A DNA stretch of 39,945 nt from an uncultured Verrucomicrobia subdivision 3 bacterium (GTDB lineage: Bacteria; Verrucomicrobiota; Verrucomicrobiia; Limisphaerales; UBA11358): the NCBI GenBank assembly GCA_903827955.1, contig CAIKKJ010000062.1:1-39945 (forward strand), read 5' to 3'. The position numbers were made by a program, and so were the translations under genes. Shown here one piece after another: positions 31,322 to 35,988 of this stretch (within the stretch, counting starts at the first letter, position 1; the number at the start of each line of letters is the position of its first letter). The notes beneath the pieces are model-generated. The model had not been told where the DNA came from and made no database searches. It saw nothing but the letters and a program-made list of their open reading frames with translations.

Positions 31322-31415
31322 CCGCGCCGAACTTTTTTCCTTCAAAAAATTCCCGCTGCCAAAAAAAATTAAGTTGCGCAACCGGCGTCGCGCGGCTTAA
31401 AGATTGGCGCAACGC

Positions 31416-34211
31416 ATGGGCAAAGCACTCATCATCGCGGAAAAACCGTCCGTCGCCAGCGACATCAGCAAGGCGCTCGGAAAGTTTGAAAAGCACGACG
31501 ACTACTTCGAGAACGACCAATACGTCGTCACGTCGGCGGTCGGCCATTTGCTGACCATCGTCCCGCCGGAAGGCGTCGAAGCGGCGCGCGGCAAGTGGAC
31601 GTTCAAATGTCTGCCGGTGATCCCGCCACACTTTGATCTCACGCCGATTGAGAAGACGGCGCCGCGTTTGCGCGCTGTCGCGAAGCTCATCAAACGTAAG
31701 GACGTGACGTCGCTCATCAATGCGTGCGACGCCGGGCGCGAAGGTGAATTGATTTTTCGCAACATCGTCCGCTACACGAAAGCGCCCCAGCCGATTCAGC
31801 GTCTCTGGCTGCAATCCATGACGCCCGCCGCCATCCGCGAAGGGTTCGCGTCGCTCAAGACCGATGAATCCATGCAGCCGCTCTCTGACGCCGCGACCAG
31901 CCGCAGCGAAGCGGATTGGCTAGTGGGGATCAACGGCACACGCGCCATGACCGCGTTCAATTCCAAGCTCGGCGGCTTTTTCAAAACGACCGTCGGCCGG
32001 GTGCAGACGCCGACGCTCGCGATTCTCGTGGAGCGCGAGGCGAAGATTCGCGGATTCAAGCCGCGCGGTTATTGGGAAGTGCTCGGCACATTCGACGCCG
32101 CAGCGGGTCAGTATCCCGGACGTTGGTTTGATGAAAAGTTTTCCAAGTCCGATGACGATGAGCAGGCAAAAGCCGAGCGCGTTTGGGATGTAGCGAAAGC
32201 GGAAGCGATTCGCGCGAAATGTCTCGGCAAGCCCGGCATCGTCACCGAAGAAAGCAAGCCGACAAGTTCGATGTCGCCGCTGCTCTATGATTTGACGAGC
32301 TTGCAGCGCGATGCGAACTCGCGCTTTGGTTTCAGCGCGAAAAACACTCTGGGCCTGGCGCAGGCCCTTTACGAAAAACACAAAGTCCTGACCTATCCGA
32401 GAACAGATTCGCGCGCGTTGCCGGAAGATTATGTTGGCACCGTCAAAGACACGATGAAGATGCTGGGCGATGTGACGGGCTACTCGTCCTTTGCCGACCA
32501 GATTCTCAAAGCTGGCTGGGTGCATCCGAATAAACGCATCTTCAACAACGCCAAAGTTTCGGACCACTTCGCGATCATCCCGACGCAGCTCGCCCCAAAA
32601 CATTTGAGCGAGCCGGAACAGAAACTTTACGACCTGGTCACGAAACGATTTCTCGCCATCTTTTATCCGGCGGCGGAATTTTTGGAAACGAATCGCATCA
32701 CGCGTGTTGAAGGCGAGCCGTTCAAGAGCGCGGGCAAAGTGCTGGTGTCGCCCGGTTGGCTCACGGTTTACGGCAAGCAATCGGATTCCGACGAAACACC
32801 CAGCCTCGCGCCGGTGAAGCCGGGCGAGACGGTCAAAACCGCGAACATCGAGGTCAAAGAAAATGTCACCAAACCGCCGGCGCGCTATTCTGAAGCGACT
32901 TTGCTGAGCGCGATGGAAGGCGCGGGCAAGCTCATTGACGACGACGAACTCCGCGAAGCGATGAGCGAGAAAGGTCTCGGCACGCCGGCCACGCGCGCGG
33001 CGACGATTGAGGGCTTGATTTACGAAGATTACGTTCATCGCAACGGGCGCGAATTGCAGGCCACGGCGAAGGCGTTTTCCCTGATGGAACTTCTCAACGG
33101 TTTGGGAATTCCCGAACTCACAAAGCCCGAGCTGACCGGCGACTGGGAATTTCAGCTGAAGGAAATGCAGCGGAAAAAAGTCAGCCGCGTGCAGTTCATG
33201 GCGGGCATCGCGGAGATGACGCGCAAGATCGTGGATAGCGCGAAGAAATTTGAATACGACACGATTCCCGGCGACTTCGGCGTGCTGAATGTGCCGTGTC
33301 CGAAATGCGGCGGCGAGATTCATGAGCGTTACAAGCAGTATCAATGCGTCAACACCGCCTGCGATTTTGCGTTCTGGAAAACGCTGTGCAGCCGGATGTT
33401 CGAGCCGGAAGAAGTCGAAACCATCATCACCAGCAAGGTCATCGGCCCGCTCCAAGGTTTCCGCAGCAAGCAGGGCTTTCCGTTCGCGGCGGTTTTGAAA
33501 ATGACCGCCGAGCACAAGGTGGAATTCGATTTCGGCAACGGCGGCAAAGACGGCGCCGGCGCGACGCCGATTGATTTCACCGGCAAGGAATCGCTTGGCA
33601 AATGTCCGGCGTGCGGCGCGAATGTCTATGACGGTGGGATGAATTACGTCTGTGAAAAACAGGCGGGCACCGAGCAGACCTGCAAATTCCGCACTGGTAA
33701 AATCATTTTGCAGCAGGAGATTTCCCCCGAGCAGGTTACGAAAATGCTGGCGACCGGCAAAACTGATTTGCTTAAAGGATTTATTTCCAACAAGACGAAC
33801 CGCAAGTTCGAGGCTTATCTCATCGTGAAGGACGGCAAGACGGGATTTGAATTTCCGGTGCGCGAGAAACGTGGCAAAGGCGCGCCGAAAGAACCGCCAC
33901 CGAAGATTGATTTCACCGGTCTGGAATCGCTCGGCAAATGTCCGAAGTGTGGCGGCCGAGTTTGCGACACTGCGGCGGGCTTTCTGTGCGAGAACTCGCA
34001 GCTCGAAGCGAAGTCGTGCAAGTTCAAGATCGGCAAAACGATTTTGGAGCAGCCGATTGACGCAGTGCAGGCGGCGAAAATTCTCAAGGACAAAAAGAGC
34101 GACGTGATGGAGAAATTCATCTCCAAATCCGGCAAGCCGTTTCCAGCGTTCCTCGTGATGGACAAGAAGGGGAAGATCACTTTCGAGTTTCCGACGCGAG
34201 AAGAGGAGTGA
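31416..34211 (+). CDS. topB: DNA topoisomerase III
   Basis: A 931-aa Type IA topoisomerase. An N-terminal Toprim domain starts MGKALIIAEKPSVASDI and contains CDAGREGE (D105, E109). The catalytic tyrosine is Y327 in LTYPRTDSR. The C-terminal third has several cysteine modules (CPKCGGEIHERYKQYQC, CPACGANVYDGG, CPKCGGRVCDTAAG) of zinc-finger/TopC type. It decatenates DNA and helps resolve recombination intermediates. The ATG at 31416 gives the family N-terminus. Two resolvase-like genes follow 6 bp later, which fits shared use in recombination. Confidence 0.96.
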   Translation: MGKALIIAEKPSVASDISKALGKFEKHDDYFENDQYVVTSAVGHLLTIVPPEGVEAARGKWTFKCLPVIPPHFDLTPIEKTAPRLRAVAKLIKRKDVTSLINACDAGREGELIFRNIVRYTKAPQPIQRLWLQSMTPAAIREGFASLKTDESMQPLSDAATSRSEADWLVGINGTRAMTAFNSKLGGFFKTTVGRVQTPTLAILVEREAKIRGFKPRGYWEVLGTFDAAAGQYPGRWFDEKFSKSDDDEQAKAERVWDVAKAEAIRAKCLGKPGIVTEESKPTSSMSPLLYDLTSLQRDANSRFGFSAKNTLGLAQALYEKHKVLTYPRTDSRALPEDYVGTVKDTMKMLGDVTGYSSFADQILKAGWVHPNKRIFNNAKVSDHFAIIPTQLAPKHLSEPEQKLYDLVTKRFLAIFYPAAEFLETNRITRVEGEPFKSAGKVLVSPGWLTVYGKQSDSDETPSLAPVKPGETVKTANIEVKENVTKPPARYSEATLLSAMEGAGKLIDDDELREAMSEKGLGTPATRAATIEGLIYEDYVHRNGRELQATAKAFSLMELLNGLGIPELTKPELTGDWEFQLKEMQRKKVSRVQFMAGIAEMTRKIVDSAKKFEYDTIPGDFGVLNVPCPKCGGEIHERYKQYQCVNTACDFAFWKTLCSRMFEPEEVETIITSKVIGPLQGFRSKQGFPFAAVLKMTAEHKVEFDFGNGGKDGAGATPIDFTGKESLGKCPACGANVYDGGMNYVCEKQAGTEQTCKFRTGKIILQQEISPEQVTKMLATGKTDLLKGFISNKTNRKFEAYLIVKDGKTGFEFPVREKRGKGAPKEPPPKIDFTGLESLGKCPKCGGRVCDTAAGFLCENSQLEAKSCKFKIGKTILEQPIDAVQAAKILKDKKSDVMEKFISKSGKPFPAFLVMDKKGKITFEFPTREEE

Positions 34212-34216
34212 TTTTT

Positions 34217-34720
34217 ATGTCGCTTCTTGAAGAGCTGAAAAAATCGCATGGGCTATTTGTTCGCTGTCCGAATAGTGAATGCGAAAATGAATTTCCACTT
34301 TCAAAAGCAAATCTTTTTGATGCCACCAAATCACTTCCGCCCCAAGTTCTGGCCTATCTAGCCAAGCAGAAAGAGGATTTACGTCAGCAACGTGCCGACT
34401 TTAAGCGTCGTAAACTTCAAACCACAACCAGATCAGAAATTGGAGCTCATTCCAGCAAGCTGGGTAAGGTTCTCGAAAAAATCGCACCTTCCTTGCCCGG
34501 TTTTCCTGTGGCGTCAGCCGACTGTCGCGCGCTCTTTGAACCGATTGATTATGTCGTCTTCAAGGGGCTTTCTGCCAAAGGAGCCGTAGATTGCATTGTC
34601 TTCGTGGATGTCAAAACTGGAAAGGGCAAGCTAACTGGTGAGCAACCTCAAATTCGTAGATTGGTGTTGTCAAAAAAAATCAAATTGACCGTCACTCCAC
34701 GTGCCCAGGAGGTGTCATGA
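34217..34720 (+). CDS. Holliday-junction-resolvase-like endonuclease (Endonuc_Holl type)
   Basis: A 167-aa protein resembling the 'endonuclease related to archaeal Holliday junction resolvase' family. The C-terminal part has EPIDYVVFKGL (D111), then IVFVDVKTGKGKLTGEQ with D131-V-K133 and a downstream Gln. Together these form a PD-(D/E)XK core. An N-terminal CPNSEC (C17, C22) and a helical middle are present. The ATG at 34217 is preferred over a GTG at 34208 overlapping the topB stop. Its stop overlaps the start of the paralogue. Confidence 0.75.
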   Translation: MSLLEELKKSHGLFVRCPNSECENEFPLSKANLFDATKSLPPQVLAYLAKQKEDLRQQRADFKRRKLQTTTRSEIGAHSSKLGKVLEKIAPSLPGFPVASADCRALFEPIDYVVFKGLSAKGAVDCIVFVDVKTGKGKLTGEQPQIRRLVLSKKIKLTVTPRAQEVS

Positions 34721-35223
34721 CTCGTTTTCTCATTTGGTTTGAGGAATTAAAACAGCTTTATGGCATTTGTCCCTGCTGCGGTGAACTCTTTCGCCTCAGT
34801 GATGTTGATATTTTTACCAAAACGCCTCCGCCAAAAACGGTCTTTGACGACATTGAAAATCAACGACGACGATTAGAAGATGCCAGGGAAAAATTTGAAG
34901 ACAAGAAGGAGGAAATCAAAGAACGGGCTACCGAACGAGGTCGTGCCAAAGCCCAGCGAAAGTTGCGCAAGATTTCTCCATTTCTCTATGATCGTGCTGT
35001 TAACGCCAACGACATTAAGGTCATCTTCGATCCTGTGGAATACATTGTCTTTCGCGGGTTGACTGACGAGAACTGCACTTCGCTGGAGTTGGTTGATCAT
35101 CCTTCTGAAACCAAAGAGCGCGAGATTGTTCAGTGTTCCATTCAGCAAGCCATTGCAGCGGGTAACATCGAATGGCAAACCTTTCGCATTAACGACAGCG
35201 GTAAAATCGTGCAGGAGAAGTAA
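34717..35223 (+). CDS. paralogue of the resolvase-like endonuclease with degenerate active site
   Basis: A 168-aa protein that aligns with the preceding gene product: the N-terminal Cys pair (GICPCCGELF), a charged helical middle (about residues 45-85) and FDPVEYIVFRGLTDENC matching EPIDYVVFKGL. The nuclease core is altered. The family Asp is Glu (E108), and the DVK motif reads VDHPS, so the catalytic lysine is missing. The C-terminal helix (CSIQQAIAAGNIEWQTFRI) is more family-like than in its neighbour. It is overlapped by 4 bp with its paralogue, so the two may act as an active/inactive pair. Confidence 0.65.
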   Translation: MTRFLIWFEELKQLYGICPCCGELFRLSDVDIFTKTPPPKTVFDDIENQRRRLEDAREKFEDKKEEIKERATERGRAKAQRKLRKISPFLYDRAVNANDIKVIFDPVEYIVFRGLTDENCTSLELVDHPSETKEREIVQCSIQQAIAAGNIEWQTFRINDSGKIVQEK

Positions 35224-35229
35224 GCGCAT

Positions 35230-35988
35230 ATGCAGCTTCACTTCAAACAACTCGGCCACGGCGAGCCGCTCGTGTTACTGCACGGGTTGTTTGGCTCGGC
35301 GGACAACTGGTTTGGCGTCGCGCCGAAGCTGGCGGAAAAATTTCACGTCCTCATTCCCGACCTGCGCAACCACGGCAATTCGCCGCATCATGCGGAGATG
35401 GATTATCCGCTCATGGCCGCCGACGTGGAGAAATTTTTCGCCGCGCAAAAGATTGAGAGCGCCCACGTCGTCGGTCACTCGATGGGCGGCAAGGTGGCGA
35501 TGCAGTTCGCGTTGGATTTTCCGGCGCGCGTGAAAAAGCTCATCGTCGTGGACATGGCTCCGCGGGCCTACAAACGGGCGCATGACCATATTTTTGAGGC
35601 GTTGCTGGCGGTGGATTTGAAATCATTTCAGACGCGGGCGGAGATTGAGGCCGCGCTGGAACCGAAAATCCCGTCGCTTAACTTGCGCCGCTTCCTGCTG
35701 AAAAATCTGGGCCGCGACGAGCAAGGAAAGTTTTTCTGGAAAATGAATCTGCGCGGCGTGGCGGAAAATTATTCGCGTCTCGGTGAAGTTTTGAGTCCGC
35801 AAAATCATTTTGAAAAGCCGGTGATCTTCATCCGTGGCGGCAAATCGGATTACATCGGTGCGGCGGATGAGTTGGAGGTCCGGCGGCTGTTTCCAGCGGC
35901 GGTAATCCAAACCATCGCGGCGGCGAATCACTGGGTTCATGCGGATGCGCCGGAGGAATTTGTGCGGCTCGTTTTGGATTTTCTGTGA
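35230..35988 (+). CDS. alpha/beta hydrolase (YbfF-like esterase)
   Basis: A 252-aa alpha/beta hydrolase. The oxyanion region is LLHGLFGSADNW, DLRNHGNS is typical, and the nucleophile elbow is GHSMGG. IRGGKSDYI carries the likely acid and NHWVHADAPEEF the histidine, so the triad looks complete. It probably hydrolyses small acyl esters or acyl-CoA; the substrate cannot be told. It follows the resolvase-like pair by 6 bp, in the topB transcription unit, with no obvious functional link. Confidence 0.9.
   Translation: MQLHFKQLGHGEPLVLLHGLFGSADNWFGVAPKLAEKFHVLIPDLRNHGNSPHHAEMDYPLMAADVEKFFAAQKIESAHVVGHSMGGKVAMQFALDFPARVKKLIVVDMAPRAYKRAHDHIFEALLAVDLKSFQTRAEIEAALEPKIPSLNLRRFLLKNLGRDEQGKFFWKMNLRGVAENYSRLGEVLSPQNHFEKPVIFIRGGKSDYIGAADELEVRRLFPAAVIQTIAAANHWVHADAPEEFVRLVLDFL

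Follow-up and report, generated by a model that had tools for sequence, protein, structure and literature searches.

Two adjacent genes on a 39,945-nt stretch of DNA from an uncultured Verrucomicrobia subdivision 3 bacterium (contig CAIKKJ010000062.1; the whole stretch analysed is hereafter called the window) probably form an autonomous cassette, spread by horizontal transfer, that encodes a heteromeric PD-(D/E)XK nuclease, in which the first product (P1) would be catalytic and the second (P2) its anciently duplicated, broken partner. This reading draws on sequence comparisons bearing on the recurrence of the pair, the conservation of its residues, the broken site of P2, the selection acting on both genes, their single origin and their recent insertion into this genome.

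Two PF10107 paralogues and their active sites

P1, a soluble protein of the PF10107 family (Endonuc_Holl/COG4741) and the presumed catalytic subunit, is encoded on the forward strand at positions 34217-34720 (167 aa), and its paralogue P2, the presumed pseudo-nuclease subunit, follows on the same strand at 34717-35223 (168 aa). The two frames meet in an ATGA and overlap by 4 bp, as a preliminary description of this DNA had stated for two Endonuc_Holl-type paralogues. Both proteins exceed the Pfam gathering score of 23.8 (71.7 bits for P1, 32.2 bits for P2); they are 32% identical across 126 columns, and a profile-profile alignment joins them over almost their full length with 99.7% probability. 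Shine-Dalgarno-like motifs were read directly in the forward strand ahead of each gene: GAGGAG at 34203-34208, within the end of topB and 8 nt ahead of the P1 start, and AGGAGG at 34707-34712, within the end of P1 and ahead of the P2 start. No promoter-like match was found in 33900-35400 of the window. The pair is flanked on the left by topB (DNA topoisomerase III; 31404-34211, forward strand; NCBIfam PRK08173, 1475 bits) and on the right by an alpha/beta hydrolase gene (35230-35988, forward strand; Pfam Abhydrolase_1), both of which lie outside the system and adjoin one another in relatives. As topB ends at 34211, the gap between topB and P1 is 5 bp rather than the 6 bp first reported. The PADLOC DpdF model matches this ordinary topB (31404-34211) at E 3e-113, a likely false-positive trap in defence annotation.

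P1 combines a CPNSEC knuckle at residues 17-22 and a long helix at about 42-92 with E87, D111, D131-V132-K133, G135 and Q143, and has the entire catalytic tetrad E-D-(D/E)-K. P2 possesses a CPCC knuckle at 18-21, and its tetrad reads R-E-D-P, with R84 in place of the catalytic Glu, E108 for Asp and D127-H128-P129 for DxK. The D-V-K of the first protein, the missing Lys of the second and its exchange of Asp for Glu had all been recognized correctly from the window; the replacement of the helix-1 Glu (E87 in P1) by Arg84 in P2 and the N-terminal CPxC-type knuckle common to both proteins had been overlooked.

The same sites were compared in sets of 31 P1 and 29 P2 rows, which omit near-copies and the loci L075 and L082, as well as L059, L062 and L084 in the case of P2 (another alignment omitted near-copies more than 90% alike, L075 and the split P2 of L059). 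Every row of both sets matches PF10107 at E <= 0.1 (31/31 P1, 29/29 P2). The full tetrad is found in all 31 P1s, in 46 of 47 single-gene relatives (from the best 80 of 99 relatives) and in 2 of 29 P2s, both encoded on viral contigs (L036 and L046). P1, like the 47 singles, keeps G83, E87, D111, (D/E)131, K133, G135, L139 and Q143; since D111 or D131-K133 formed part of the patterns by which P1 loci were detected, conservation of P1 at those sites was partly selected for, while E87, G83 and Q143 lie outside the patterns. P2 was located by position, and its residue counts are therefore free of this bias. In P1 numbering, D111 is kept in 27 of 29 P2s, D131 in 28 and Q143 in 28; the helix-1 Glu is lost in 27 of 29, with Lys or Arg there in 26, K133 is absent from 21 of 29, and G135 is unconserved. 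The Glu-for-Asp change of the window P2 occurs in 2/29 P2s and is nearly private. Judged by its motif, P2 is a PF10107 homologue and not a nuclease of that family, though the two widely kept metal-site residues (D111 and D131), and the tetrads of L036 and L046, suggest that some P2s may still cut. A further Cys of P1 near the catalytic Asp motif, C103 (34523-34525), is invariant in 31/31 P1s; most P2s have Ala, Ser or Val at this site, and most singles Ala or Ser.

The N-termini separate the pair from the rest of the family. A hydrophobic N-terminus is present in 0/31 P1s, 0/29 P2s and 44 of 47 singles (from the best 80 of 99 relatives). The first Cys of the CPxC knuckle is found in all P1s (31/31) and P2s (29/29), the second in 30/31 P1s and 22/29 P2s; the P1 of L077 has one knuckle Cys only and no evident replacement. 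At 7 of 37 loci the second knuckle Cys of P2 is Thr or Ser and the P1 there carries 3-4 Cys; since these seven loci group as a single clade of the P1 tree, they amount to about one event and lend weak support to a joint zinc site.

According to the account of the family in PMC1189080, COG4741/PF10107 comprises predicted membrane-anchored endonucleases with an N-terminal transmembrane stretch, related to archaeal Holliday junction resolvases and YraN, with the motif E-(V/I)D-E(V/I)K. P1 and P2 share homology with these proteins in the nuclease domain, and the P1 motif, E-(V/I)D-(D/E)(V/I)K, is close to the motif given there. Unlike that description, the pair has a CPxC knuckle instead of a hydrophobic N-terminus, consists of two genes and includes a protein with a broken motif.

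Structure prediction yielded a fair P2 model with pLDDT 85.6 and pTM 0.49, in which a 45-residue helix runs into the fold and seems suited to pairing; the P1 model was poor (pLDDT 70.0 overall, about 50 in the nuclease domain). The P2 model matched no PDB structure at E <= 0.001, a VIA-align comparison of it covered mainly the long helix, and the best match to it in a viral structure library carries the name Holliday junction resolvase-related (E 1.8e-4, though with TM 0.33). Sequence searches of the PDB returned coiled-coil and chance-like matches only.

Distribution, co-inheritance and selection

A genome scan was performed with P1-type proteins only, and the best 80 of 99 relatives were kept, nearly all of them on MAG contigs. 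These fall into 33 loci with a soluble, CPxC-type P1 (L052-L084; P1 scores of 125-193 bits, save 77 bits for the broken P1 of L075) and 47 membrane-anchored singles (L085-L131; 55-82 bits). The former come from Acidobacteriota, Bacteroidota, Nitrospinota, Rokubacteria, Bdellovibrionota, Ignavibacteriota, Marinimicrobia, FCPU426, Goldiibacteriota and a Thermoplasmata archaeon. Among these best 80 of 99 relatives, P2 lies directly downstream of P1 at 31 of the 33 CPxC-type loci and at none of the 47 singles; an 18-bit P2 match at one single (L105) is chance-like and falls within a long frame that overlaps this same gene. The two CPxC-type loci devoid of P2 are L075, in which P1 is broken, and L082, whose contig breaks off 116 bp past P1, and P2 is aberrant at three others (split by a stop in L059, shortened in L062, altered at its end in L084). 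Recurring as it does in 31/33 cellular loci found by the first gene alone, the two-gene arrangement is far beyond chance. The junction between the genes measures -11 to +20 bp at 26 of 36 loci, with the exact 4-bp overlap of the window at 9 of 36. Exactly two PF10107 genes were detected in 27 of 29 pair-bearing genomes that could be searched out of 30 loci requested, and one in the genomes of L069 and L075. At a Hydrotalea locus (L064:1757-2254), 2.7 kb upstream of the pair, there is a 165-aa frame without a recognisable nuclease core that has P2-like ends, namely an N-terminal knuckle region with one Cys and a P2-like C-terminal tail.

Viral contigs carry the pair as well. Scans with the single proteins (P0001, P0002) gave no matches in the viral contigs, and alignments were required: a five-row alignment retrieved 6 loci, two with both genes (L036, L037), and a P1-type alignment retrieved 8 contigs, five with both genes (the two known and L046-L048) and three singles. 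All 5/5 viral contigs with a CPxC-type P1 carry P2. Their neighbours, classified by PHROGs, include DNA polymerase, dUTPase, methyltransferase and homing-endonuclease relatives. The one locus read in which the pair is not adjacent is L036, with a 75-aa gene between P1 and P2 (L036:3436-3663). Collections of phage and plasmid records contained PF10107-type singles or nothing, and no pair.

Within individual phyla the pair is sparse. P2 was present in 1 of 395 genomes of a Bacteroidota sample (singles in 2), two PF10107 genes in 1 of 396 of an Acidobacteriota sample (one gene in 4) and the pair in 1 of 193 of a Bdellovibrionota sample (singles in 2 above the cut-off and 1 below), the positive genome being in each case the one on which the sample was centred. 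All 8 readable singles of these samples have a hydrophobic N-terminus (two judged by eye, the frame starting too early), and L150 had no profile match when the singles were read. The pair is rare within the sampled phyla, yet spread over about ten phyla of bacteria and archaea as well as five viral contigs, and is older and broader in its spread than the preliminary description could know.

In a tree of 70 rows, including ten singles, all P2s lie on one side of a branch with support of 100/99, P1s are grouped with 90/74 and the ten singles with 100/97; the locus nearest to both window proteins is L052, from Acidobacteria. By this topology, P1 and P2 stem from one old duplication. The view that the duplication was recent and the pair still evolving is not supported, the P2s forming a single branch. 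Nor is a single gene in most relatives, beside a decaying second copy, the pattern found: single-gene relatives exist but constitute a different, membrane-anchored branch. Compared across 28 loci, the distance matrices of P1 and P2 show a correlation of r = 0.91, a value that 0 of 5000 permutations reached (best 0.45); shared descent alone would yield such a value, which accordingly speaks for co-inheritance and not for contact. Computable in 5 of 8 comparisons, dN/dS ranged over 0.028-0.098 in P1 and 0.018-0.060 in P2, dS being saturated in the other 3/8; these estimates indicate that P2 is constrained as strongly as P1 and that both are under strong purifying selection.

Surroundings of the pair differ from locus to locus. 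Outside the pair, no neighbour cluster is shared by more than 6 of 37 loci, and these are for the most part close Chitinophagaceae; of 138 neighbouring proteins, at most 2 matched any one Pfam family and at most 3 any one family of PADLOC or PHROG. Similarity at the DNA level is confined to the two genes, with nothing else exceeding 100 bp, in 7 of 13 locus pairs (L060/L066, L053/L054, L060/L062, L076/L083, L064/L071, L071/L074 and L072/L064); close Chitinophagaceae and viral relatives have more DNA than the pair in common, and L052 and the window share none. Around the Polaribacter and Hydrotalea pairs the adjoining genes belong to the accessory genome, being present in 1 of 58 and 3 of 79 genomes, so that these loci provide no second empty-site comparison.

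Insertion between topB and the hydrolase gene

The window genome is the only one of 49 genomes of its family (all of one genus) with PF10107, the 48 others being without it, and at the level of the phylum the profile was likewise found in this genome alone among 387. The hydrolase is present in 37 of the 49 family genomes; 30 loci were retrieved, 29 of them from relatives. In 20 of these 29 relatives the end of topB is also within the locus, and in 9 the retrieved stretch contains no topB. Spacing between topB and the hydrolase is -1 to 88 bp in 13 of the 20 readable relatives, which represents the empty site, and the remaining 7 have other DNA of 323-1156 bp with unrelated frames in between. 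GC3 of the two inserted genes is 0.42 and 0.47 vs 0.64-0.72 in five nearby genes; the mean of 13 further ORFs of the window is 0.68, with three lying at 0.50-0.52. No direct repeat suggestive of a target duplication surrounds the insert, where only short chance-like repeats were seen. By composition and the empty sites, the pair is a recent insert of foreign composition between topB and the hydrolase gene.

The coupling to topoisomerase III proposed earlier does not survive these comparisons: the two genes occur in 1/49 family genomes, topB and the hydrolase are directly joined in many relatives, and no recurrent neighbours exist elsewhere. Linkage between topB and the pair in other genomes had been suggested as a check, and the adjacency was seen in the window genome only. 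The placement of the pair beside topB is an accident of the landing site, with no functional tie. RuvC is present in the genome, and the pair is thus not its housekeeping resolvase.

The junction between topB and the hydrolase is variable across the genus, other DNA being present in L011, L014, L017, L021, L023, L024 and L030 (34212-35229 in the window); by eye, the junction DNA of those relatives includes acyltransferase-, methyltransferase- and protease-like frames. A palindrome-like element of 74-88 bp occupies the spacers of L005 and L020 (also L006, L009, L012 and L018). Two versions of the spacer palindromes, a GATTAGCGGTT type and a CTTCGCG type, seem to be recurrent, as if small repeat elements reuse the spot.

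A putative heteromeric nuclease and its alternatives

Coupled genes of equal size that are nearly always found together, one with a broken site and both constrained, and that share a knuckle and a helix, are best understood as encoding subunits of one nuclease complex. The heterodimer of an active subunit and an inactivated paralogue envisaged in the preliminary description is in this respect supported, by inference from pairing across phyla, purifying selection and co-varying distances. One translationally coupled message would give rise to P1, the catalytic subunit, and P2, required alongside it. The two would most likely join through the parts exclusive to them, namely the long helix entering the nuclease fold and the N-terminal CPxC knuckles, which might build a single zinc site between them. 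As each pair would have a single functional active site, it would introduce a single-strand nick rather than a symmetric cut, its probable target being DNA with a branch or with damage, which P2 may help to grip; COG4741 is distantly connected with junction resolvases and YraN, as described in PMC1189080, and this makes a branched substrate plausible and no more. In the window genome, the cassette would have landed cleanly between topB and the hydrolase gene, and it probably borrows the Shine-Dalgarno sequence in the end of topB. Its purpose may be repair, phage replication, defence or addiction.

Such a heteromeric nuclease might serve to attack incoming phage or plasmid DNA, a reading that differs in purpose and not in make-up and that we regard as a minority possibility. 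The patchy distribution would fit, as would a few defensive-looking neighbours (AbiU-like in L058, HerA-like in L063, NsnB-like in L074), but the pair also resides on viral contigs, of 10 neighbours chosen by hand, 7 matched PADLOC weakly and in part or not at all, and no PADLOC family exceeded 3 of the 138 neighbours. Slightly less credible to us is a nuclease with a guard, an addiction (toxin-antitoxin-like) or immunity pair in which P1 is harmful and the inactive paralogue restrains it. Two coupled genes with sporadic spread and no fixed neighbours are compatible with this idea, and among the best 80 of 99 relatives an intact CPxC-type P1 lacks P2 only at a contig end. The presumed guard is, however, the second gene, and it is as large as the nuclease and homologous to it; selection on both genes is very strong for an addiction cassette, by our own expectation; and PADLOC 2.0.0 profiles gave no match to P1 or P2 at E <= 1.

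We consider it improbable that the pair is a selfish, free-standing endonuclease which spreads, homing-like, by cutting empty sites. The restriction of similar DNA to the two genes in several comparisons, a window insert carrying nothing more and a viral neighbour related to homing endonucleases are in line with it, but neighbours are unrelated across loci, so that no common target site is seen, only short chance-like repeats flank the window insert, and an obligate inactive partner would be left unexplained. A resolvase pair acting with topoisomerase III on junctions, the original interpretation, is very improbable: the 5-bp spacing and the Shine-Dalgarno-like sequence inside topB speak for it in this one genome, but the adjacency, confined to that genome, refutes a conserved link, the insert is foreign in composition and a normal RuvC is present. 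Least probable of all is a recent tandem duplication whose second copy is in decay, to which the 32% identity and the missing Lys might point, since each copy is nearer to its counterparts in other phyla than to its neighbour and dN/dS of P2 orthologues is about 0.02-0.06, both of which contradict it.

The preferred design, a catalytic P1 with an inactive paralogue, has precedents in other families. XPF-ERCC1 and Mus81-Eme1 each consist of an active nuclease subunit and an inactive paralogue, and the well-known active/inactive nuclease pairs are eukaryotic. P1/P2 resembles them by analogy but belongs to a different family: neither window protein matches the ERCC4 domain (Pfam), and a search of the window genome for ERCC4 (PF02732) gave 0 matches, the control being positive in 4 of 14 genomes. 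The archaeal resolvase Hjc is a homodimer with two active sites; its likeness to the pair is the distant PD-(D/E)XK relationship of the family description, and it differs from P1/P2, which are two unlike subunits. BbvCI, a heterodimeric restriction enzyme, likewise has unlike subunits from neighbouring genes, whereas P1/P2 have no fixed methyltransferase partner and one subunit is without the catalytic tetrad. Pairing an active with an inactive nuclease is a recurring route from a two-strand cutter to a one-strand, structure-aware nickase.

A literature search found no paper on the pair. PF10107 appears in a data table of PMC5395568, and the sole published functional guess that we found for the family, in the account of PMC1189080, rests on the membrane-anchored branch. 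For annotation, a soluble two-gene branch is hidden inside PF10107. We tentatively suggest, as a possibility somewhat short of even, that P1 and P2 represent an undescribed nuclease of bacteria, archaea and phages, an obligate heterodimer of active and inactive paralogues with a joint zinc site to which each chain contributes one CPxC knuckle; it would be a prokaryotic counterpart to the XPF-ERCC1/Mus81-Eme1 design, evolved independently in the COG4741 branch and moving as a bare two-gene unit. Only 1 kb in length, co-inherited over about ten phyla and phages and apparently unstudied, the pair would offer a clean system in which to approach the role of a dead subunit.
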